Shown in pieces: positions 2,728-59,847 of a stretch of 64,000 nt of DNA. Below the pieces are notes generated by a model. That model was not told the DNA's origin, did not search any database, and worked only from the letters and a program-made list of their open reading frames with translations. Each line of letters opens with the position of its first letter. Position 1 is the stretch's first letter. Location of the stretch: the NCBI RefSeq assembly GCF_000092405.1, contig NC_014220.1:2170001-2234000 (forward strand), read 5' to 3'. The DNA is from Syntrophothermus lipocalidus DSM 12680. GTDB lineage: Bacteria > Bacillota > Syntrophomonadia > Syntrophomonadales > Syntrophothermaceae. A program made the position numbers and the translations under genes.

Positions 2728-2950
2728 CGCCTTGCCTTTTGTCCCGACCGTTGCCGGTAGGTTTTGTAGCAAGGCTCACGATGGTGGCACACCGAGGGAC
2801 CATCCGCCGATACTTTCGATAAGTCCCTTCCTCGTCACCCGGCACTCAGGAGTAACAGCAAGCCAATTCCAACTCCAGTTTGTATCAAAAAAGATAGCTG
2901 TGGAAACTTCCTATAAAACAGCTCAACGGCTGAGTGCCGGGGCTGGCGCT
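2728..2950 (-). promoter_or_regulatory. glmS ribozyme-riboswitch (GlcN6P-activated self-cleaving RNA)
   Basis: Read on the minus strand, the leader contains the glmS ribozyme signatures in order: AAAGCGCC at the cleavage site (cut expected between positions 2950 and 2949), then GACGAGG, then TTATCGAAAGTATCGGCGGA, then the pairing blocks around CCTTGC...GGCAAGG. These match the Bacillus glmS ribozyme as I remember it. The RNA binds glucosamine-6-phosphate, cleaves itself and destabilises the glmS mRNA. The P2 helix is unusually long: its arms are CCCGGCACTCAG and CTGAGTGCCGGG (2838-2849 and 2930-2941) enclosing about 80 nt, and the same arms bound a palindromic repeat elsewhere in the window. 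The rest of the 368-bp glmM-glmS gap holds only the heptamer tract and the ribosome binding site. Confidence 0.9.
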
Positions 2951-2990: not shown

Positions 2991-4337
2991 TTACTTTTGA
3001 GCTAAAAGTATGGCCTTCCTTATCTCTTCAACCACCTCCTTCAGCATGAACTCATCCCGCCCCTGGGCCATGATCCTTATCTTGGGCTCAGTCCCTGAAG
3101 GGCGAACCAAAACCTTGCCCCATTCTCCTAACCGGATGTCTGCTTTAGCTATCACCTCCTTAACGTTGTCGTTATCCAGTATCCCTTCCTTATCTTTTAG
3201 GTCCACATTAACCAGAATCTGTGGCAATCTTTCCATCTCCAGAGCTAGTTCTGACAAGGGTAACCCAGTCTCGCGCATGACTTCAGCCAATTTCAACCCG
3301 GAGAGTAAACCGTCCCCGGTAGTGGCGTAATCTAGCAGAATAATATGACCCGACTGCTCCCCTCCCATGCGAGCCCCGGTTTCCATCATTTTTTCCAGTA
3401 CATACCGGTCTCCGACCTGGCAATACTCTACCTCAACTTTCTCCCGGCGCAGGGCAATGTCGAGCCCGATGTTGCTCATCACCGTGGCCACTACCTTGCT
3501 CGGGACCAGCCTCTTCGTCCTCTGCCAGTGCAGCCCGCAGATTACCATTATTACATCCCCATCCAGGACATTACCCCGCTCATCCACAACTATAACCCGG
3601 TCTGCGTCCCCGTCATAAGCCACTCCAAAATCGGCCTTGTGTTCCAGAACCGCCCGTCGCAGCTTCTCTGGGTAAGTGGACCCACACCGGTCGTTGATGT
3701 TGATGCCATTGGGATGGTTACTTATAGAAATGACCTTGGCCCCCAGTTCCTCCCAAAGGCGGGGAGCCACACTATAAGCAGCACCGTTTGCACAGTCCAC
3801 GACCACGCAGAGCCCGCTTAAGTCACGCGGTGCCCGGTAACAGCTTTTCAAGTAATCGATGTAGTTCGTTTCCGCTTCTGCCACCTCGTAGACCCGGCCG
3901 ATGCCGTCACCAACTGGACGGGCCAGGTCATCCACTCCCTTTTTAACCAGTTCTTCAATCCTGTCCTCGGTTTCATCGGGCAGTTTATAGCCGTTCGCAC
4001 TGAAAAACTTGATGCCATTATCCTCCATAGGGTTATGTGAAGCGGAGATAACCACTCCGCTCGAAGCTTCATACCTGCGGGTAAGGTATGCTACTGCCGG
4101 GGTGGGCACTATCCCGGCTTTGAGAACGCTCGCCCCTGTAGACAGAATCCCGGCGATCAAGGCCGCTTCCAGCATATCTCCCGATATTCTAGTATCTTTG
4201 CCGACCAGTATCCGCGGGTGGTCGAACTCCTGGGCCAACACGTAACTCCCAGCCCGACCTAATTTATATGCTAACTCTGGAGTCAGGTCTTCGTTGGCTA
4301 CGCCCCGGACCCCGTCCGTACCGAATAACCTCCCCAA
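2991..4337 (-). CDS. glmM: Phosphoglucosamine mutase
   Basis: The 448-residue protein interconverts glucosamine-6-phosphate and glucosamine-1-phosphate in UDP-GlcNAc synthesis. It starts MGRLFGTDGVRG, carries the phosphoserine loop ISASHNP with the phosphorylated serine at residue 100, the metal-binding loop YDGDADR near residue 240 and the substrate phosphate-binding loop RPSGTEPKIRI near the C-terminus, so all four domains are present. The start is TTG with GGGAGGG about seven bases upstream. It follows the FAD dehydrogenase gene by 113 bp and precedes the glmS ribozyme. In other Firmicutes GlmM binds CdaA and inhibits it, which fits its place in this block. Confidence 0.96.
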   Translation of the reverse strand: MGRLFGTDGVRGVANEDLTPELAYKLGRAGSYVLAQEFDHPRILVGKDTRISGDMLEAALIAGILSTGASVLKAGIVPTPAVAYLTRRYEASSGVVISASHNPMEDNGIKFFSANGYKLPDETEDRIEELVKKGVDDLARPVGDGIGRVYEVAEAETNYIDYLKSCYRAPRDLSGLCVVVDCANGAAYSVAPRLWEELGAKVISISNHPNGININDRCGSTYPEKLRRAVLEHKADFGVAYDGDADRVIVVDERGNVLDGDVIMVICGLHWQRTKRLVPSKVVATVMSNIGLDIALRREKVEVEYCQVGDRYVLEKMMETGARMGGEQSGHIILLDYATTGDGLLSGLKLAEVMRETGLPLSELALEMERLPQILVNVDLKDKEGILDNDNVKEVIAKADIRLGEWGKVLVRPSGTEPKIRIMAQGRDEFMLKEVVEEIRKAILLAQK

Positions 4338-8018: not shown

Positions 8019-8867
8019 GTGGGAACTGTTCTCGTAGGCACCTGCGCCTGGAGCGATCACACCGATTTTTACCCCCCTGGTCTAAAACCCACCCGACAGC
8101 TAGAATATTATGCCCAGTTTTTCCCGGTAGTGGAGATCGACAGCACCTTCTACGCGCTTCAGCCCGCTCGCAATTTTGCCGGCTGGGCTAGAAAAACTCC
8201 GGAAAACTTTGTCTTCGATGTCAAGGCCTACCGGGTGATAACCAGGCACGACCGTTCCCCTATGGACAAGGATGAGCTCGCCTACATCGTCAATCGCTTC
8301 GCCTCTTCCCTGACTCCCTTGGAAGAAGCGGGCAAGCTGAGGGCGGTTCTGCTCCAGTTTCCCCCGTTTTTCGTCTGCAACCCCCGGAATATAAGCTATC
8401 TTCTGTGGTGCCGGGAGCGGCTGGCCTCCTTCACCCTGGCGGTAGAATTCAGGCACCGCTCTTGGTTTGAGGGCGATACGCGCGACCAGACCTTGAAACT
8501 GCTCGCCGATAACCGCCTGGTCAACGTGGTCTGCGATGAGCCCCAGATTGGGCAGGGCAGTGTACCGATGGTAGCAGAGGTAACCTACCCGAAACTCGTA
8601 ATCTGCCGTTTCCACGGCCGCAATGCTCAAATGTGGTACAGAAAAGGCCTGAAAACGAGCGGCGAGAGGTTTAATTACCTGTACTCGGATGAAGAACTCG
8701 AAGAGCTTCTCGGACGAGTCTTGCCCCTATCTGAGAAAGCAGAAGAAATGCACATACTGATGAACAACAACTTCGGCGATTACGCGGTGAGAAACGCCCT
8801 CCGGATTCGCGAAATGCTAGGACAGCTAGCCACAAAGCCACAGGTAGGTACAGATTCATTTAACTAG
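8019..8867 (+). CDS. DUF72 (YecE-like) TIM-barrel protein
   Basis: The 282-residue protein matches the DUF72 family: an N-terminal GTCAWSDHTDFYPPGL, then LEYYAQFFPVVEIDSTFY, AVEFRHRSWF in the middle, and a C-terminal HILMNNNFGDYAVRNAL. Members adopt a TIM-barrel-like fold and their biochemical role is not settled. The start is a GTG with AGAGGAGG about 13 bases upstream. The stop codon TAG (8865-8867) is the first part of a dispersed intergenic repeat arm. It stands alone and convergent to dnaE2. Confidence 0.88.
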   Translation: MGTVLVGTCAWSDHTDFYPPGLKPTRQLEYYAQFFPVVEIDSTFYALQPARNFAGWARKTPENFVFDVKAYRVITRHDRSPMDKDELAYIVNRFASSLTPLEEAGKLRAVLLQFPPFFVCNPRNISYLLWCRERLASFTLAVEFRHRSWFEGDTRDQTLKLLADNRLVNVVCDEPQIGQGSVPMVAEVTYPKLVICRFHGRNAQMWYRKGLKTSGERFNYLYSDEELEELLGRVLPLSEKAEEMHILMNNNFGDYAVRNALRIREMLGQLATKPQVGTDSFN

Positions 8868-8968
8868 ACGCAGATTAACGCTGATTAATAATAACTAAAA
8901 TTTATTAAATATATAGCAGTAATTTATAATTTTATAATCATATAAAATCTGCGTTAATCAGCGTCTAA
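8865..8968. repeat. Dispersed inverted-repeat element between DUF72 gene and dnaE2
   Basis: The left arm TAGACGCAGATTAACGCTGA pairs imperfectly (two mismatches in 22) with the right arm at 8944-8966, AATCTGCGTTAATCAGCGTC, around an AT-rich centre. The left arm contains the stop codon of the DUF72 gene and the right arm contains the last codons and stop of dnaE2 (LDAD-stop). Related words recur at many intergenic sites in the window. Confidence 0.8.
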
Positions 8969-11900
8969 TACCAATCGTTTTATAATTTTTGCCACCACGC
9001 TGACTGCGTTGCCTCTTTTCTGCAAAACCCCTTCCACTACCAGCGGCGAGGTTTGGGGAGAGAATATAAGTCCTCCGTAGCGCTGATACACGTCTTCGAA
9101 AACCGTCACATCGGTGAGGCCGAACTCGTCCTCCAGCGACATAAAAACGGTAATCCTGCCGCTTTTGGTAGGGGGCCGGTGGGGGCAGAGCAGTACCCCT
9201 GCTACCTTTACCCAGCTCCCGTCCGGCAGGGCTGCCAGGTCCCGGCTGCTTTTAAAGCCGTTCCTCTTTAGGTAACCGCGGAACCTGGCCATAAGGTGCT
9301 CCCGCGGGCTCAAACCTAAGATTTCGAACTCCATCGCGTATTTTTCGTCCTCGGTAAAATCGGGGATGTCCATTTTCGCGTCTGCCGCCTCGCCGTCATC
9401 GAAGGCGATAATCCCTTCTTTTACGTTTCCCGCCGGTTGGGGTCGAAAATACAGCTTTCGGGCCTTGACCAATAGCCGGCGCCGGTTGGTATCGAATACA
9501 TCTAAGGCCCCGCACTTTATCAGGTTCTTCATTTCGTCCCGGGCCAGCCCGGTTTTCTCCCACACCTCGGTCAGGGATGCAAACGGCCGGTAAACCAGGA
9601 TTTTCTTCAACCCTTCCCGGCTGAGACCTTTTACCCGGGCCAGCGGAATCCGGATGCCGCCTTTTTCCACCCGGAAGGCTTCCCCGCTCCTGTTGATGCA
9701 GGGCGGGAGTATCTTTATCCCCCTCCGCCTGGCCTCATTCAGGATAACGTGAGGAGGGTAGTAACCCATGGGCTGGTTGCTGAGAACAGCCGCGTAGAAC
9801 TGGGCCGGGTAGTGGCGTAAGAGGTATGCGGTCTTGTAACTGGTGGTGGCAAAAGCGGCGGCGTGGGCTTCGCAGAAGCCGTAGCTGGCGTAACCGGCCA
9901 TGGCCTTGAATATCGTCGCTGCTGCTTCCTGGGACACCCCGTTTTCCACCGCTTTCTTGATAAACTCCCGCCCCACCTCATCCATCACTTTCTGGGAACG
10001 GGCGTGGGTCATCACTTTACGCAGGCGGTCGGCCTCTCCCGGAGTGAATCTGGCAATCGCGGTGGCAATCTCGATCACCTGCTCCTGAAAAAGGATGACC
10101 CCGTAGGTCTTGGCCAGGATAGGCTCGAGCGCGGGGTGCAGGAAAGTCACCGGTTCCCGGCCCTGCCGGCGGGATATATAGGGTTCTACCATGTTGCCTT
10201 TGATCGGCCCCGGCCTTATAAGGGCCACGCTGGCCACGATGTCCTCGATATCAGAGGCCCCCAGCCGCGCCTGCAGAGCTCTCTGGGCCGGGCTTTCCAG
10301 TTGAAAAACCCCGATGGTTTGTCCTTTGTTTATCATGCGGTAGGTAGCATCATCGTCCAGGGGTATTTTTTCGTAGTCGAACGTTTTCTTTTCCTGCTTG
10401 ACTGCCCTTACCGTGTCTTCGACCGCCGACATCGCTCGCAAAGATAAAAGGTCGAGCTTAACGAGTCCCAGTTCTTCTACATCGTCTTTGTCGAACTGGG
10501 TAACGATTTCCCCTTTGGCCGACTGCTGGAGCGGGGTAATATCGCAGAGGGGCTCCCGGCTCACCACCAGCCCTCCCAGGTGGGTACCCAGAAAACGGGG
10601 AAAACCGGCCACTCTTTCACACAGGTCCAGCAGCAGCGCGAATTTGTCCCGATCCAGCCCGCTCTCCCGCAGCTCCGGCAGCAAAGACAGCATATCCCTA
10701 ATCCGGTCGGCGTAGGCACCGTAAGGGAGCCTCTTGGCCACCCTGTCCAGTTCGGCTTCGGGCAGCCCCAAAGCTTTGCCCAATTCCCGCACCGCGGATC
10801 TTGCCCTGTACGTGCTGTAGGTGCAGACCTTCGCCACCTTGTCCTCGCCGTATTTCCGGGTAACGTACTCGGAGATGCGGTCGCGCCAGCGGGCATCGAA
10901 ATCGATGTCGATATCCGGCTTCTCCGCCCGCTCCAGGCTCATAAACCGCTCAAACAGGAGCCCCCGGGCTAGGGAATCTACCTCGGTTATCCCCAAACAA
11001 TAGGCTACAAAAGAATCGGCGACCGATCCTCGCCCTGTATGCCGTATCCCCTGCCGGCGGGCGTATTCGACTATATCCCAAACCACTAAGAAATAGTCGG
11101 CATAACCCAGGGTATTGATGATGTGGATTTCGTGTTCCAGCCTCTCTTCGACCCTTCGCGTTACCCGGCCGTACTTTTTCCTGGCCCCGCGGTAAGCAAG
11201 TTCTCTAAGAAGTGACTCCGCCGTCTGGCCGGGAGGCGGGTTGAACCTAGGGAAAAGAGAGGCGCCCGGTTCCAGAGAAGGCCGGCACCGCTCCGCTATC
11301 TCCCACGTATTAGCTACCGCCTGCGGGTACTCCCGAAAAAGCTTCTTCATTTCCCGTTCTGGCTTGAGATGGTTCTCGGCATTGAGCGGGCGTTCCGGGT
11401 GTACCTCGTACACCCGGGTCAAGGTTCGGACGCAGGTCAGGATGTCGTGAACCTTAAAGTCCTCCGGACACGCGTAGTGGACGTTGTTGGTGGCCACCAC
11501 ACCCACCCCCAGTTTCTCGGCCAGTTCGGCCAGGTCCCGGTTTAAGGTCCTGGTGCCGGGCAGGTAGGTATCCTGCAGTTCCAGGTAGAAGCCGTCTTTT
11601 CCCCATATCTCCAGGTAAGCCAGAGCAGCCCGGTAAGCGGCATCGTACTGGCGGGAAAGAATCCGGGCCGGTATCTCCCCTTTGCGGCAGCCCGACAGGG
11701 CGATGATGCCTTCCGCGTGCTCCTTCAGTATATCTAGGCCCGCCTGAGGCTGGCGCCGGGGATTATCCAGATGGGCTTTGGTTAAAATACGGCAGAGATT
11801 ACGGTAGCCTTCTTCATCCTCGGCTAAAAGGGTAAGGTGGTATCCCCCGGCTACGGTCACCTCCACCCCCTGGATAGGCTTTATTCCCGCTTTTTGGGCT

Positions 11901-12055: not shown

Positions 12056-12280
12056 CCTACCACCTGCCCCAAGAACGAGCCACAGATGAACTCAGATAAG
12101 CACTGATTAACACAGATGTTTATATTTGACGCTGATTAACGCAGATTTTTTAATAATTAATGCATACGACTTAAAATTGCGAGGAATGCGGTTCATTTTC
12201 TGGTAGTGATACCGCTTGGTGTATATAAGGGGGGTTGCGTAAATCAGCGTTTAAATCAAAAATAAATCTGTGTTCATCTG

Positions 12281-12367
12281 CCCGGCACTCAGCTGACTGA
12301 CATTGTAACATGCCACTGGTTCCCGAAAACCCTAGCCGCTAATCAAAGACTTGAGCTGAGTGCCGGG
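12281..12367. repeat. Palindromic element, copy 1 (87 bp)
   Basis: The element runs from CCCGGCACTCAGCT to AGCTGAGTGCCGGG, a 14-bp perfect terminal inverted repeat around about 59 bp. It interrupts a dispersed repeat whose uninterrupted relative is seen at 23889-23930. There is no coding capacity. Confidence 0.8.
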
Positions 12368-12492
12368 TCAGTGTCCATCTGTGGTTTACTTCCGGAGCAG
12401 ACCCCCATGACATCTGGCGGTATCACCACTAGAGAATGGAAACTTCGGATTCTTTAGAAAATCTTCAATTAAGGAAAATCTGTGTTCATCTG

Positions 12493-12579
12493 CCCGGCAC
12501 TCAGCTGACTGAAGTCGTAACATGACAGCAAGTCCCGAAAACGCTAGACGTTAACCAAAGACTTGAGCTGAGTGCCGGG
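12493..12579. repeat. Palindromic element, copy 2 (87 bp)
   Basis: Same length and the same 14-bp arms as copy 1. The right half (CAAAGACTTGAGCTGAG) is nearly identical to copy 1 while the middle diverges, as expected for an RNA or DNA hairpin or an old duplication. The flanks on both sides match those of copy 1, so this may be a duplication of the whole 120-bp unit or two insertions at equivalent sites. Confidence 0.8.
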
Positions 12580-14120: not shown

Positions 14121-14450
14121 CCTGACCTTTTTCATCTTTGATTTCACTTTAAAAACTACTTCCGAAGAGGTGGCGGCTGCCTGTTTGCCTGTATGTAGCG
14201 CCGAGGCCAATAATGGCCACAACATATTAGGTTAAGACTATGCGGTTGACTCTTTTCGCGGTGATATCTGATTACGAATTCTGAAAAAGTCTGCGTAAAT
14301 CAGCGTCTGAATCATATTTAAATTTTCAAATCGAGATCGGATTTGACGTTTTTTTGACGATCTCCCGATATAATTTCGCTGAAGAATTCTGCGGATTTCC
14401 TTTCTGTATTCGGGAACCAAGTTCTGTCTTTACGAAAGGGAGGTCGATCT

Positions 14451-16434: not shown

Positions 16435-19400
16435 ATGATTTTTGTACTGTTGAGAAGACGCAGCCCGGCAATCCTTTTGTCAATTTTTATGCTTGTCTCT
16501 TTTTCACTCTTCCCTCCCACCGGGCCAGCCGGCGGCGTTTCGCCGGAGGCGTCGCTGTCCATCACTGCCCCGCGTGACGGGGAGACCCTGCTGGCCGGCC
16601 AGTCTTATACCGTTGCCTGGACGTATACAGGTGATGTAGGGCGGTACGCCCGGATTCAGCTTTATAAAGGAGGCCAGTTCAAGACCACCATTTCTTCTTA
16701 CACGTCGGTCGGCAGCGACGGAGCCGGCACCTACTCTTGGAAGATCTCCTCCACTTTAGCCGAAGGCGATGATTACCAGATAAAGATTACGAGCACCTCT
16801 AAAAGCACCGTTTTCGTTATGTCGAGCAGTTTCCGCGTTAGGCAGGCAAGCCAATCGGTGTCTCCCACGGTTTCCGGTCTGCCGGTCGATGTATCGAAAA
16901 TCTTGCCATTATCGGAGCAAAAACAGAGCAGCTCTCAAGTCTCGGACGAAGACAAACCGTCAACAGCCCCGGCTGCTGCCCAGACCGGACCTGACCTGAC
17001 CATAACCGAGATCAAGATGCAGCCGGATCCCGCTAATCTAGGGGCTAATGTTACCTTTTCGGTAACGGTCAAAAATGCCGGTAACAGCGCCTGTCCCGCG
17101 GGGGGTACGGTCAAGATAACGTCTGCCGGGGTAATTAAAACTAAGACCATGTCTTCGCTTAATTCCCAGGCCAGCTCCACTGTTACCGTAGCAGGGGTCA
17201 CCTTGCCGCAGGCCAGCAAGGAGGAAATAACCGTTCAGGTAGAACCGCCGGCCGGCACGGCCGATATCAACCCGAGTAACAACAGCCGGCAGTACAGCCC
17301 TAATACCCTGGAACCGGACCTCACGGTGACCAAAATCGTAACCGTTCCCTCGGTTGCTGCTCCCGGATCGCTGGTTAAAGTCACGGTCACGGTTAAAAAC
17401 CTGGGACCCGGGTCCTGCCCGGCGGGAGCTGCGGTGAAATTGACCGGAAGCCCGGGCACTCCGGAGGCCACTCAAACTTCCTCTACCCCAATAGCCAAGA
17501 GCTCGGAGCGGCAGTTCACCTTCGAAAGTTTCCCGATGCCGTCGAAGGCCACCGACAAGCTTACGGCTGAGGTTCTCGCCCCGCCTGATGTCAAAGAAGT
17601 TTCAGCGAACAACAATACCTTGAGCCTGCAGCCGAGTTTACCGTCGGTCGACCTCACCATAACCGCGGTCAAGATGCAGCCGGATCCGGCCAGCCTGGGG
17701 GCTAACGTCATCTTGTCGGTAACCGTCAAGAACGCCGGAAGCACTCCCTGTCCGGCTGGCGGCGTGGTCAAGATTACGGCAGGCGGCACTACCAAAACCA
17801 AGAACATGTCTTACCTTGGGGCCCAGGCTAGCTCCACCGTCACCGTGGGCGGGGTTACTTTGCCGACCGCCGGCAGCCCAGTCATGACCATCCAGGTGGA
17901 ACCGCCTGCCGGTACGGGTGATATCAACCCGGACAACAACAGCCAGCAGTATACCCCGAACATCATCAAACCGGACCTCACCGTGACTGGTATTTCCACT
18001 AGTCCCTCCAAGGCCGCTCCCGGAGCGCCGGTCAAAGTGACGGTCACGGTCAAGAACCTGGGACCCGGTACCTGCCCGGCTGGAGCTACGGTGAAGCTGA
18101 CCGGAAGCCCCGGGGCCCTGTCTTTGCAGACTGTATCTAACACTATAGCCAAGAACTCTCAGAAGCAGGTGATCTTCAACGGTTTCCCCATGCCCTCCAA
18201 CACCAACGACAAGCTTGTCGCCCAAGTATCGACGCCTTCTGGAGTAGGCGAGGTCTCAACTGCCAACAACACCGCGAGCCTGCAGCCCAGCCTCCTCTTG
18301 CCGACCGTCGAGTTCGTTTCCCTCACCTCCAGCGGTTACTGGTCGGCAGGTGGCGGCAAACCGGCTCTGGGAGACCCTATATTCTTTAAGGCCACCTTGA
18401 AAAACACCTCTAACTACCAGATAACCAACCTTCCGGTGCAGCTCAGCTATCAGGGACAGGTGATTAAGACCAACTACATCAACATCAATCCTAAAAGCTC
18501 GGCCAGCACCGAGTTCGACGTGGTTGTGCACCCGGCGGCCCTGCCTCCTAGCCAGAATACGGTCACCTATACCGTCACCGTCAATCCGCCAGGACCGGGA
18601 AGCCTGCTTATCTCTCCGGCGACCCTGAGTAAAACCATCACCCTCGAGATACTCAAAACCGGAACCGTCTATGCGCTGATCCGCCAGCCCGACAACAGCA
18701 CGTTTGACGAGGGTGGTTTCACCGTTACCTGCAGCGCAGGCTCCTACTACCAGGAAGTAAACACGGGAGAAGCCTCCATGGCTATCTTCCGCGATGTCCC
18801 CATCGGGGTTAACCTGCAGGTAAAAGCCAGCAAGACGGGTTATATAGGCTATAACGGGCAGGACATCTTCAGCGGTATGCTGACCTCGAGCAGTATGAAT
18901 GTCAAGCTCTACCTCACCAACATGGGGAGTGCCGCGGTCGGGGCCAAGAGCCAGGCTACGGGCAATTTCCTTTCCGGAGTGACCGTGGAGGTTGTAGGAA
19001 CAGGGCAGCAAGACATGACCACCCAGGCTGGACCCGCCAGCTTCAGCCTGCCGGCCGGCACTTATACCTTCCGCCTCTCCAAGCGGGGCTTCGCACCTAC
19101 TACCGTAACCGGCACCGTACGGGCAGGACAGGTGACCGACGTGACCGGCACCATGAGCTATACCACCATGACCACGGTAAGCGGTAGAGTAGTGGATCAA
19201 AACGGAAATCCTCTGACTGGTCAAAAGGTAGACGTGATCAAGTGGATTAATAACAGCGTCGTTGCCTCTACCACCACCGACAACGGCGGCAGTTACACCG
19301 TAACCTTCGACAACCACAACGTAGATCCCATGTACCTTAAAGCCGTTAAAGGCAACGCCAGCGGCAGGTCGGAACCGGAGTGCTTCTACCCGGGCTTGAG

Positions 19401-23793: not shown

Positions 23794-23985
23794 TAAGACG
23801 CAGACCCCAACGACACTGGGAAGTGTCACCACTAGAGTATGAAAACTTGGTTTTCCAGGGGGAGAATCTGGAAATCCTGTAATAAAAAATCTGTGTTCAT
23901 CAGTGACCATCTGTGCACATCTGTGGCTAGTTTTCGGGGCAGATTAACGCTTTTTAAGAAATCTGCGTTAATCAGCGTCAAATGG
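23794..23985. repeat. Dispersed repeat element
   Basis: The stretch contains GACGCAGAC at the left, the CACCACTAGAG word shared with 12419-12432, AATCTGTGTTCATCAGTGACC and CATCTGTGGCTAGTTTTCGG in the middle, and AAATCTGCGTTAATCAGCGTC at the right. It is the uninterrupted relative of the segments that carry the 87-bp palindrome at 12281 and 12493. Confidence 0.8.
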
Positions 23986-24834: not shown

Positions 24835-24928
24835 TGTTTTCTTAACCCTGGCCCGACCTTCAGTGTCGATCTTGATTGGCGACCAGCGTTTTCGGCCTCA
24901 ACGCCCTATTGGGATTTAAGCTGGCTCA

Positions 24929-25072
24929 GTGCCGGGTACATTTAAACGGGTATTAGCCGGACTGCCTGTAGCACTCGACGGCTTCTTGTTCTTTACCCGG
25001 GTGTTCTGGAGCGTAAATGCCGCGCAGTTCAATAACTACAGCAAGATAAACCATCTGAAAGAATTGGTTTGA
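24929..25072 (+). CDS. Possible very small membrane protein or fragment
   Basis: A 47-codon frame from GTG encodes LAGLPVALDGFLFFTRVFW followed by SVNAAQFNNYSKINHL. The pattern FWSVNAAQFNNY resembles the FWAVRSGQFDDL segment of CcoS-like small proteins, but no ribosome binding site is seen and the start lies inside a degenerate palindrome arm (CTCAGTGCCGGG, 24925-24936). It may be the remnant of a gene. The rest of 24835-25110 shows no other feature. Confidence 0.25.
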   Translation: MPGTFKRVLAGLPVALDGFLFFTRVFWSVNAAQFNNYSKINHLKELV

Positions 25073-34267: not shown

Positions 34268-34349
34268 TAAAACCTACCTCCTTTTCTAAACATCCCTTCT
34301 TACTTTACAGAGACTTGGTGTTACCTCTTTAGCCTTCCCCAAAACAAAT

Positions 34350-34376
34350 CAATTCTCAATTCTCAATTCTCAATTC
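34350..34376. repeat. Tandem heptamer AATTCTC, about four copies
   Basis: The same 7-bp unit as at 2671-2716 lies in the 227-bp gap between ilvN and ilvC. The remainder of the gap holds no feature I can name. Confidence 0.8.
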
Positions 34377-34494
34377 CTATTCCCCGCCGTTAGAGCGCTC
34401 AGGCATTGCCCAAGGCTTAAAGGCAAAGGAAGTACTGATTAAACCACCACCCCTCTACTTGCCGGAGGATTCTGTATGCTTATACTGTATCCTT

Positions 34495-38396: not shown

Positions 38397-38426
38397 GGTT
38401 TCTCTCCTTTCGGTTGCGAAAGAAAT

Positions 38427-38520
38427 TAGACGCAGATTAACGCAGATTTATAATGATAATGAATACCACGAAAATTAGCCACAGATGCACACAGATGTTT
38501 AATGATGTACACAGATTATT
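38427..38520. repeat. Dispersed repeat in the ilvE-ilvD gap
   Basis: TTAGACGCAGATTAACGCAG at 38427 and TTAGCCACAGATGCACACAG at 38475 belong to the dispersed family. At 38549-38603 a CCCGACACC ... GGTGTTATCGGGG pair could form a further degenerate hairpin. The rest of the 280-bp gap shows no promoter or leader I recognise. Confidence 0.7.
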
Positions 38521-38676
38521 TTAATTGAATATTTACTAGGTTACATTACCCGACACCGAGGCTTTCCTTCTCTAATCGTGAAACCGCTGGGTGTTATCGG
38601 GGTCTGGTCTGGATTTAACGAAATTACCGTTTCCGATAACATGATTGCCTGTATCCTGTTACCCTATGGTTAAGTC

Positions 38677-51212: not shown

Positions 51213-52437
<1,225 letters not shown>

Positions 52438-52438
52438 C

Positions 52439-53644
52439 CTACGTACGGTAGCTGGCGTTGATGTCGACGTACTCATGCGTAAGGTCGCAGCCCCAAGCCC
52501 GGGCCGAGTAACTACCCTGTTTCAAGTCTAATCTGATGATTACCGCATCCTTCCTCAGTTCTTCACGAGCTGCTTCCTCATCAAACTCTAAGCCCGCTCC
52601 GTCCCTGGCTACCTGAACTCCGCCGAGATAAATATCAACCAATTCAGGGTCAAAATCCGCCCCCGAATAACCGGCGGCGCATATGATCCTTCCCCAGTTA
52701 GCGTCTTCGCCGAACACTGCCGCCTTAATGAGGTTAGAAGCCGTTATGGCACGAGCTATGCGGCGGGCATCTTCTTGGCTAGGAGCCCGCTCCACCTGAA
52801 CCTCGATCAGACGCGTCGCTCCTTCCCCATCCCGGGCTATCATCTTGGCGAGTTCCACATTTACGTAATTGAAGGCTTCTTTGAAAGCCAGGTATGCCTC
52901 CGATGCTTCGTCGCTGATCTCGGGGTTACCCGCCAGCCCGTTGGCCAAAACGAGCACCATATCATTGGTTGAGGTATCGCCGTCAACGCTTATCATGTTA
53001 TATGAGATGTCTACCGAATCGCGCAGTGCTTTCTGCAAACACTCGGCGCTGATGTTGGCATCGGTGGTTATGAAAGCCAGCATAGTAGCCATGTTGGGAT
53101 GAATCATGCCAGAACCTTTAGCCATTCCGCCTATGCGAACCGCTCTGCCTTCGATCTCAACCTCCACCGCTGTCTCTTTAACAACGGTGTCGGTGGTCAT
53201 TATGGCTTCAGCTGCACACAGACCGCCCTCCCGACTCAATCCCTGGCACGCCCGTTCAATCCCGGCTTTAACCCTGTCCATAGGCAACGGTACCCCCATG
53301 ACCCCGGTCGAGGCCACCAATACGTCTCGAGGCTCAAGTTTGAGCGCTCTTGCCGCGGCTTCAGCCATTAGATATGCATCTTTCTCGCCGTGGGCCCCGG
53401 TACAGGCGTTGGCATTGCCGCTGTTGACCACGATGGCCTGGGCCTGCCCGTCGGCGATGGCCTGCTTAGTGTATTTCACGCACGCTGCCTGCACCAGGTT
53501 AGTAGTAAATACCCCGGCCGCCCTAGCCAAACCCTCGCTATAGATTACGGCTACGTCCTTTTTGCCTTTTTTTCTTATCTCTGCCATAACCCCTTGGGCG
53601 AGAAAACCCTTCGGGGCTGTAACTCCTCCTGTAATTACCTGCAT
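52439..53644 (-). CDS. argJ: Glutamate N-acetyltransferase / amino-acid acetyltransferase ArgJ
   Basis: The 401-residue protein is self-cleaving; the threonine nucleophile is T187 in [12 protein letters not shown]. Other family parts are [12 protein letters not shown] and [15 protein letters not shown]. It transfers acetyl from acetylornithine to glutamate, and possibly uses acetyl-CoA as in bifunctional forms, so the pathway is cyclic. It starts 20 bp after argC. Confidence 0.97.
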
Positions 53645-58261: not shown

Positions 58262-58440
58262 TCAGCCACAGATGGACACAGATTTTTCACCGATTTACAC
58301 TGATTCAAATATCACTAGTAAAGCCTGTTTTTGTTCACCATGTTAGAAGTTGTCTACCAAGCGTTAGAAGCATCCGTCGTCTGTGTCCAAACTTAAAAAA
58401 TCTGTGAGAATCAGAGCTAATCGGTGTTCATCTGTGGCTA
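58262..58440. repeat. Dispersed inverted-repeat element between lpd and lipA
   Basis: The left arm GCCACAGATGGACACAGATT faces a right arm containing AATCTGTGAGAATCAGAGC and TCGGTGTTCATCTGTGGCTA, about 180 bp apart. The TAG of GTGGCTA (58438-58440 read on the minus strand) is the stop codon of lpd. The centre shows no gene. Confidence 0.8.
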
Positions 58441-59847
58441 CTTATTGGTATGTTCTCCAGGCAGCATGTGGATGGCCTGGCCGCAGGCGGCCTGGGCTGT
58501 TTCCAGGACAGCTTCGGACAAGGTAGGGTGCGTGTGTATGGTGTCCACGATACCTTTGGCCGGAATCTGGTGGCGCATGGCCAGCGCAATCTCAGCCACC
58601 AGATCCGCCGCGTGTGGCCCTATAACATGGCCTCCCAGGATCTGCCCGTTTTTCTCGTGTACAACCAGCTTGACCATGCCTTCCCACTCCCCTAAAGCCT
58701 GGGCCATGCCCAGGGATTTGAACGGGAAGCTGAAGGCAGTAGCCGGGAACTGCTCCTTAGCCTCTTCTTCGCTCAATCCTACCGCGGCGTACTCGGGGAA
58801 GGCAAAAACACAACGGGGGACCACCCGGTAGTCCATCCGGGATGTTAGGCCAGCCGCATTTTCAGCCGCGGTTATCCCTTCAGCGAAAGCCACGTGGGCC
58901 AAGAGCCACCCGCCCACAACGTCCCCGGCAGCAAAGATTCCGGAGATGCCCGTTTCCATGTGCTCGTTCACTGCTAGAGGCCTGCCATTTTCCGCCAGAC
59001 CAACGGCTCTGAGCCCGATCGATTCCACGTTTGGCACCCGGCCCGCTGCCATCAATACCGCATCTCCTTCCCACTTTTGCCCGTTCGACAGCATAACGGT
59101 AACCTTGTCCCCCACCGCCGCTTCGTTGACAGACAGGCCGGTAAGCACCTTTACCTTCTGCCTCTTCAACATGCGCGTCATGTAGGAAGCCATCTCCAGG
59201 TCTTCCCCGGGAAGGATACGGTCCTTCATCTCAAGCAGGGTTACCGAGCTCCCCAGCTCGGCCATTATGGAAGCCATTTCCACTCCCACCGCCCCAGCAC
59301 CGACGATAAGGAGGGAGGCCGGCACCCGAGATACTTCAAGGATATCGTCGGTGGTCAGCACCCCCTTGTTCTCGCCGGTCAATCCGGTAAATGGAGAAGG
59401 GATTGAAGGCCTGGATCCGGTAGCGATGACTATCTTTCCTGCTTTCAGCCTGATTATGCCGTTGGCGGTTTCAACCTCGACCTCGCGCGGGGAAAGCAGC
59501 GTCCCGGTTCCTTCCAGGTGCTCGATGCTGCGGCTTCGAAAGAGCTGGCTTATCCCCCCGCGTAGAAGGCCTACCACTTTATTCTTACGGGCGATAATAG
59601 CCTTAATGTCGGGGCGAGCCGTTTCGATCTCGATACCGTAGGCCTTAGCCCGCCGTGCCCGGGAAAGAACTTCCACCGACGCTCGAATAGCCTTGGTCGG
59701 AATGCAGCCCCGGTTGAGGCACACTCCACCCAGTTCCCGCGACTCGACTACAGCCACCTTCATCCCCAGCTGGGCGGCGCGAATCGCGCCCTGGTAACCG
59801 GCGGGCCCGCCGCCGATAAAGACCACATCGAATACCTGCTCGCCCAT
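58438..59847 (-). CDS. lpdA: Dihydrolipoamide dehydrogenase
   Basis: The 469-residue flavoprotein disulfide reductase has the FAD loop VVFIGGGPAGYQGAIRAAQL, redox disulfide C43-C48 in GGVCLNRGCIPTK, an NAD loop LLIVGAGAVGVEMASIMAEL and the C-terminal histidine-glutamate pair in HTHPTLSEAVLE. It oxidises a dihydrolipoyl carrier with NAD. No E1/E2 or P/T-protein genes are adjacent; the only lipoyl carrier in the window is the GcvH-like protein. Confidence 0.95.
   Translation of the reverse strand: MGEQVFDVVFIGGGPAGYQGAIRAAQLGMKVAVVESRELGGVCLNRGCIPTKAIRASVEVLSRARRAKAYGIEIETARPDIKAIIARKNKVVGLLRGGISQLFRSRSIEHLEGTGTLLSPREVEVETANGIIRLKAGKIVIATGSRPSIPSPFTGLTGENKGVLTTDDILEVSRVPASLLIVGAGAVGVEMASIMAELGSSVTLLEMKDRILPGEDLEMASYMTRMLKRQKVKVLTGLSVNEAAVGDKVTVMLSNGQKWEGDAVLMAAGRVPNVESIGLRAVGLAENGRPLAVNEHMETGISGIFAAGDVVGGWLLAHVAFAEGITAAENAAGLTSRMDYRVVPRCVFAFPEYAAVGLSEEEAKEQFPATAFSFPFKSLGMAQALGEWEGMVKLVVHEKNGQILGGHVIGPHAADLVAEIALAMRHQIPAKGIVDTIHTHPTLSEAVLETAQAACGQAIHMLPGEHTNK

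Follow-up and report, generated by a model that had tools for sequence, protein, structure and literature searches.

The glmS ribozyme of Syntrophothermus lipocalidus DSM 12680 carries in its P1 helix an inserted hairpin, probably a copy of a family of non-coding hairpin caps that would replace the tips of hairpins, with arms recognized in trans and interiors that are exchangeable. The same arms bound at least 61 hairpins of 61-102 bp, with at least 22 interior families, in the genome searched (a single contig of 2,405,559 bp; imperfect and shorter copies included), where control patterns found none, and one family occupies many RNA sites in several phyla. The P1 copy lies in a 64,000-nt stretch of this genome, called here the window (positions 2,170,001 to 2,234,000; Table 1). 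The preliminary description of the locus recorded a real feature, the scope of which is far wider than glmS.

Table 1. Elements, genes and repeats discussed in the text; positions refer to the window unless marked as genome or locus (L) coordinates.
Feature	Position	Strand	Remarks
glmS, glucosamine-6-phosphate synthase (presumed)	802-2622	minus	606-aa ORF, directly downstream of the ribozyme
TTAATTCTCAATTC short tandem repeat	2674-2724; 34349-34385		first copy between ribozyme and glmS
glmS ribozyme, RF00234	2719-2961	minus	full length, long P1
Inserted hairpin element, distal part of glmS P1	2838-2941		104 bp; exact arms; G003 has a homologous insert, G001 and G002 a short P1
Element arm CCCGGCACTCAG	2838-2849	+	exact 12-mer; 3' strand of P1 in RNA
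Interior of the glmS insert	2850-2929	-	80 nt; by clustering unrelated to all other interiors of the genome
Element arm CCCGGCACTCAG (minus-strand reading)	2930-2941	-	exact 12-mer; 5' strand of P1 in RNA
Phosphoglucosamine-mutase-like ORF (presumed from sequence)	2991-4337		upstream of the ribozyme
Intergenic element copy	12281-12367	-	87 bp; interior family of 19 full copies
Second intergenic copy	12493-12579	-	87 bp; same interior family
Decayed remnant of this interior family	24870-24936	+	interior-only model E 0.006, beside CTCAGTGCCGGG; right arm 1 mismatch, left arm lost
ATCTGTG/CACAGAT dispersed repeats	8837-8970; 12074-12153; 12236-12400; 14287-14323; 23884-23983; 38421-38521; 52088-52441; 58265-58448		period about 10 bases
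Tandem duplication	16993-18290		period about 657 bp, 75-84% identical
RNA-gene sites with element	16S h6; 16S h44; 23S H25 and H98 (both operons); RNase P P12; cobalamin riboswitch; glmS P1		rRNA helix names presumed from flanking sequence
~330-nt repeat, GGAGTGTTAGCC...GGCTAACACTCC	L118:985-1351; further copies in L082, L086, L089, L091, L092, L093, L098, L102, L112, L114		zero, one or two caps
S23-encoding 23S intervening sequences (PF05635)	genome 50379-50696 (L080:4400-4860); genome 746667-746903		different arms
GGAGACCAGA..TCTGGTCTCC insert in RNase P P12 of relatives	L273, L274, L276, L280, L281, L283, L289, L292, L295, L299, L317, L318, L319		
~380-bp palindromic repeat of Desulfobotulus alkaliphilus	L150:3363-3739		dozens of paired caps

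The ribozyme is a complete member of RF00234: cmscan aligns model positions 1-167 with all core segments at 94.2 bits (gathering score 37; E = 1.3e-20), and the glmS ORF follows downstream. The preliminary description, right about the ribozyme, placed the insert in P2; the helix in question is the first to follow the cleavage site on its 3' side (AGCGCC...GACGAGG), and we take it to be P1 in the naming of the literature. This P1 carries CCCGGCACTCAG and CTGAGTGCCGGG on either side of the interior, so that the exact arms separated by about 80 nt stand as first reported, and so do the two 87-bp elements bounded by the same 12-mers; these three pairs account for all six exact 12-mers in the window. 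The outer CCCGG/CCGGG of the arm match is also usual in native P1 helices of the order, and the diagnostic part of the glmS arms is therefore GCACTCAG/CTGAGTGC. The alignment leaves the catalytic core intact, and the capped ribozyme is most likely still functional, perhaps with full activity. A short TTAATTCTCAATTC tandem repeat separates it from glmS and recurs elsewhere in the window.

Chance is excluded as the source of the arm pairs. Across the genome there are 42 pairs spanning 67-97 bp and six longer ones, glmS included, against none for the reversed control; allowing one mismatch or none, the 12-mer occurs 119 times, against seven for its reversed control. The earlier judgment that two exact arms would hardly meet by accident is thus borne out, and the genome-wide search that it recommended returns many further copies rather than few. 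In the stretches around the elements nearly every arm has a partner no more than 220 bp away, which identifies the hairpin as the unit; its form is 5'-Y CCGGCACTCA R N(about 40-80) Y TGAGTGCCGG R-3'. The interiors of 57 copies cluster into 22 families, with the glmS interior alone, and two intergenic copies find no Rfam match at E up to 1.

Arms and interiors evolve at very different rates, the arms slowly and the interiors fast. A sequence model built from the interior of the largest family alone, which avoids picking copies by their arms, recovers 19 full copies genome-wide; all of them have both arms, with three of 456 arm bases changed, and their interiors differ pairwise by 26%. Pairwise identity is 99.5-100% in the arms versus 74-90% in the interiors. 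The outermost pair covaries (C:G at 68, T:A at 47 and other combinations at five of 120 distinct sites), and arms with another base pair at position 7 give three matches, versus 66 with C:G in the same 64 genomes. Within the interiors, structure is supported for the arm helix only, and the covariation term is small.

Did the hairpin enter the ribozyme, or did the repeats come out of it? The preliminary description offered both possibilities and proposed looking for a short version of the helix in close relatives. Two members of the same family have one: their P1 hairpins are 14 nt long (G001 and G002; loci L120 and L121), and the hairpin was therefore inserted and not derived from the ribozyme, as the large element population also argues. 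That CCCGG/CCGGG is common in native P1 helices of the order would suit an origin of the repeats in P1, an idea made barely credible by the occurrence of the same arms in distant taxa, within RNase P RNA, rRNA and cobalamin riboswitches, by a glmS interior found nowhere else in the genome and by the short P1 of the two family members. In one further genus of the family (G003), the P1 insert matches in length, its arms are identical and its interior is homologous at 67.5% identity (alignment score 18; shuffled maximum 9). G003 also has the element elsewhere in its genome, and thus does not show the pattern, P1 arms in a relative that lacks the element elsewhere, that would have spoken against insertion. 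In another relative (G027), near-identical arms in glmS P1 enclose an unrelated interior. In four relatives (G005, G007, G013 and G019), the arms in glmS, in RNase P or in both have decayed, and there is no further exact copy; in the last three, the RNase P arms have changed on both sides to CCGGCAATCA/TGATTGCCGG or near, with pairing kept. These glmS P1 and RNase P comparisons indicate that P1 has been capped more than once and that the arm sequence decays where the element population is missing. Two others (G033 and G048) tell against the hairpin-cap reading: they have exact RNase P arms and no other exact copy found in genomes that are both incomplete, as those of the relatives often are.

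In the source genome, 11 copies sit in RNA genes at seven kinds of site, within roughly 12 kb of the genome; the enrichment is a rough count. Many copies lie in dispersed ATCTGTG/CACAGAT repeats, as a rule at a single fixed point of the repeat, and a second group lies in the ~330-nt repeat, which folds far better than its shuffles (z -4.2) and looks like a multi-hairpin RNA or a mobile palindrome. The window also contains a tandem duplication. Elsewhere, 15 of the 200 genomes searched in the phylum have the arm pair (reversed control 0 in the genomes listed), as do at least 120 stretches from other species among species-representative genomes. Rfam and BLAST assign many of these copies to RNase P RNA, 16S and 23S rRNA and cobalamin riboswitches, and their positions there often match those in the source genome. 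Beyond the source, the arms are found in other Firmicutes, in Desulfobacterota and in MAGs labelled Myxococcales and Acidobacteria; carriers among the matches listed are Thermoanaerobacter, Caldanaerobacter, Thermoanaerobacterium, Desulfofundulus, Desulfobotulus (dozens of copies) and MAGs labelled Myxococcales, Acidobacteria and Desulfobacterales. In Desulfobotulus alkaliphilus the caps are paired inside a ~380-bp palindromic repeat. Carriage by viruses was rejected, as the exact pattern matches no stretch in IMG/VR.

How does a copy enter its site? Empty copies of the 330-nt repeat read GTTG-CAACG-GCTC and filled ones GTTG-T[element]A-GCTC: five nucleotides are replaced, with no target duplication, and none is seen at the RNA sites read. 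RNase P P12, which has a short native tip in many relatives and the element in others, fits the same replacement of a tip. The intergenic ATCTGTG sites are ambiguous, as their flanks can also be read as a 4-bp duplication TCWG. Pairing of the host flanks beyond one base is, as a rule, not above chance, and the term hairpin tip therefore applies to the RNA genes and the 330-nt repeat rather than to every site. Copies also appear to exchange parts. The one at genome position 531653 is flanked by the ATCTGTG repeat to its left and by the 330-nt repeat to its right, and shows a rare mismatch of the outermost pair (C and A); from its flanks, this hybrid looks like a product of recombination between two elements. 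At 23S H98, the flanks of the two operons are identical at 599 of 600 positions and the arms are conserved, whereas the interiors are no more similar than shuffled sequences; exchange of interiors via the arms would explain how unrelated interiors came to lie within identical arms.

These observations can be joined in a single scheme. Where a hairpin already exists, whether in a structured RNA gene or in an intergenic palindromic repeat, a copy of the element would replace its tip with no duplication of the target and would lengthen the host helix by its own arms; in glmS, the tip of P1 would have been replaced before the split from the genus that shares the insert. The arms would stay nearly invariant through recognition by a trans-acting factor or through recombination between copies, while interiors would drift freely and be swapped between copies through the arms. 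The best reading, then, is a REPIN-like design whose copies, perhaps still mobile, are moved or homogenized in trans by a putative factor.

If the arms are so well conserved and pair so well, could they serve the RNA rather than the DNA? They might form a helix cut by a double-strand-specific ribonuclease. As with a classical intervening sequence, the insert would then be removed from rRNA, RNase P RNA and leaders, and selection for cleavage would preserve the sequence of the arms. We regard this as unlikely, if the most serious of the alternatives. In its favor, many copies lie in rRNA at sites such as 23S H25, where RNase III is known to excise intervening sequences in Salmonella (PMC2672173), the arms pair perfectly and covary at their ends, and the RNase P arms of three relatives have changed on both sides. 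RNase III, however, recognizes shape and is not known to read an 11-bp sequence; dozens of copies in intergenic repeats with no known transcript keep the same arms; genomes without other copies have lost the arm sequence while keeping the pairing; and removal of the insert would sever glmS in its P1 strand and break RNase P RNA in two.

At the DNA level, descent from true REPINs, doublets mobilized by a RAYT (Y1 HUH) transposase, is improbable despite a common architecture of two invariant inverted ends, a variable spacer, a dispersed population, a single-stranded DNA hairpin, compensatory changes and absent target duplication; GI REPINs have about 71 bp between their ends (PMC3116915). PF01797 proteins number zero in the complete source genome and zero in G048, no GTAG-like tag was noticed beside the arms, and REPINs are extragenic, whereas the elements described here lie within RNA genes and have arms common to several phyla. 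Slightly more improbable still is that the elements are MITEs, which a DDE transposase would move by their short terminal inverted repeats. They do recall MITEs in being small and numerous, with conserved inverted ends and several kinds of interior, and TCTG is found on both sides of some intergenic copies, but duplication is absent at the composite site in the 330-nt repeat and at the RNA sites read, interiors have been exchanged while the site stayed unchanged, and in the loci examined no autonomous copy has these ends and no arm pair brackets a gene. The hairpin-cap reading itself has against it that no mobilizing enzyme was found: the complete genome has no Y1 transposase, no arm pair in the loci examined surrounds a gene, and no transposase recurs next to the elements. 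A search for a shared neighboring gene showed recurring clusters that resemble housekeeping genes, or translated rRNA and repeats, and no transposase was recognized among the clusters identified.

Short palindromes inserted within genes are familiar from Rickettsia, whose palindromic elements lie mainly in frame in protein genes; copies in RNA genes have reportedly been found. In both 23S genes of S. lipocalidus there is also an intervening sequence of the classical kind, coding for an S23 protein, and RNase P P12 of many Syntrophomonadales has a second, unrelated hairpin insert (GGAGACCAGA..TCTGGTCTCC, GGAAGTCGGA-rich), a GGAGGTC/GGAAGTC-rich hairpin that resembles these S23-type inserts. Their arms differ from those of the CCGGCACTCA elements, and the S23 protein was rejected as a partner, being present in four of 15 genomes with the element and 34 of 185 without it. 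Among the closest known systems are inserts that form helices where hairpin tips of 16S, 23S and 5S rRNA tolerate them, which vary between operons of one genome and are frequent in Thermoanaerobacterales and Peptococcaceae (PMC2672173; PMC7812874 for the 5S expansions). The rRNA copies of the element, at 16S h6 and h44 and at 23S H25 and H98 as we presume these helices to be, are what had been called intervening sequences or expansion segments. Homologs of the T. tengcongensis 23S inserts were not found (PMC2672173), and expansion segments are treated as independently acquired (PMC7812874); in their accessible parts, neither report uses a common end sequence to link rRNA inserts with those of RNase P RNA, riboswitches or ribozymes. 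In the present family a single conserved 11-bp end joins rRNA, RNase P RNA, riboswitch, glmS and intergenic inserts across phyla.

The wider proposal is a cross-phylum class of hairpin-cap cassettes, with a fixed 11-bp end helix recognized in trans and exchangeable interiors, that would spread by replacing hairpin tips in structured RNA genes and palindromic repeats and would be the single source of rRNA expansion segments, RNase P P12 extensions, riboswitch arms and ribozyme helices. We put it forward tentatively, as a claim that has slightly less than an even chance of holding. The evidence suggests a mobile-like element without earlier description that targets structured RNA genes; a literature search with the arm sequences gave nothing relevant among the matches listed, in a body of text that covered little of the subscription literature, where an earlier description is possible. 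The variable arms seen in rRNA, RNase P RNA, riboswitches and ribozymes are generally put down to unrelated drift. Should a single family be the source of many of them, the question of where bacterial expansion segments come from could be tested: copies could be named according to their ends, dated from their interiors and traced from RNA to RNA. Such a family also hints at a putative enzyme or repair route that acts on hairpin tips.
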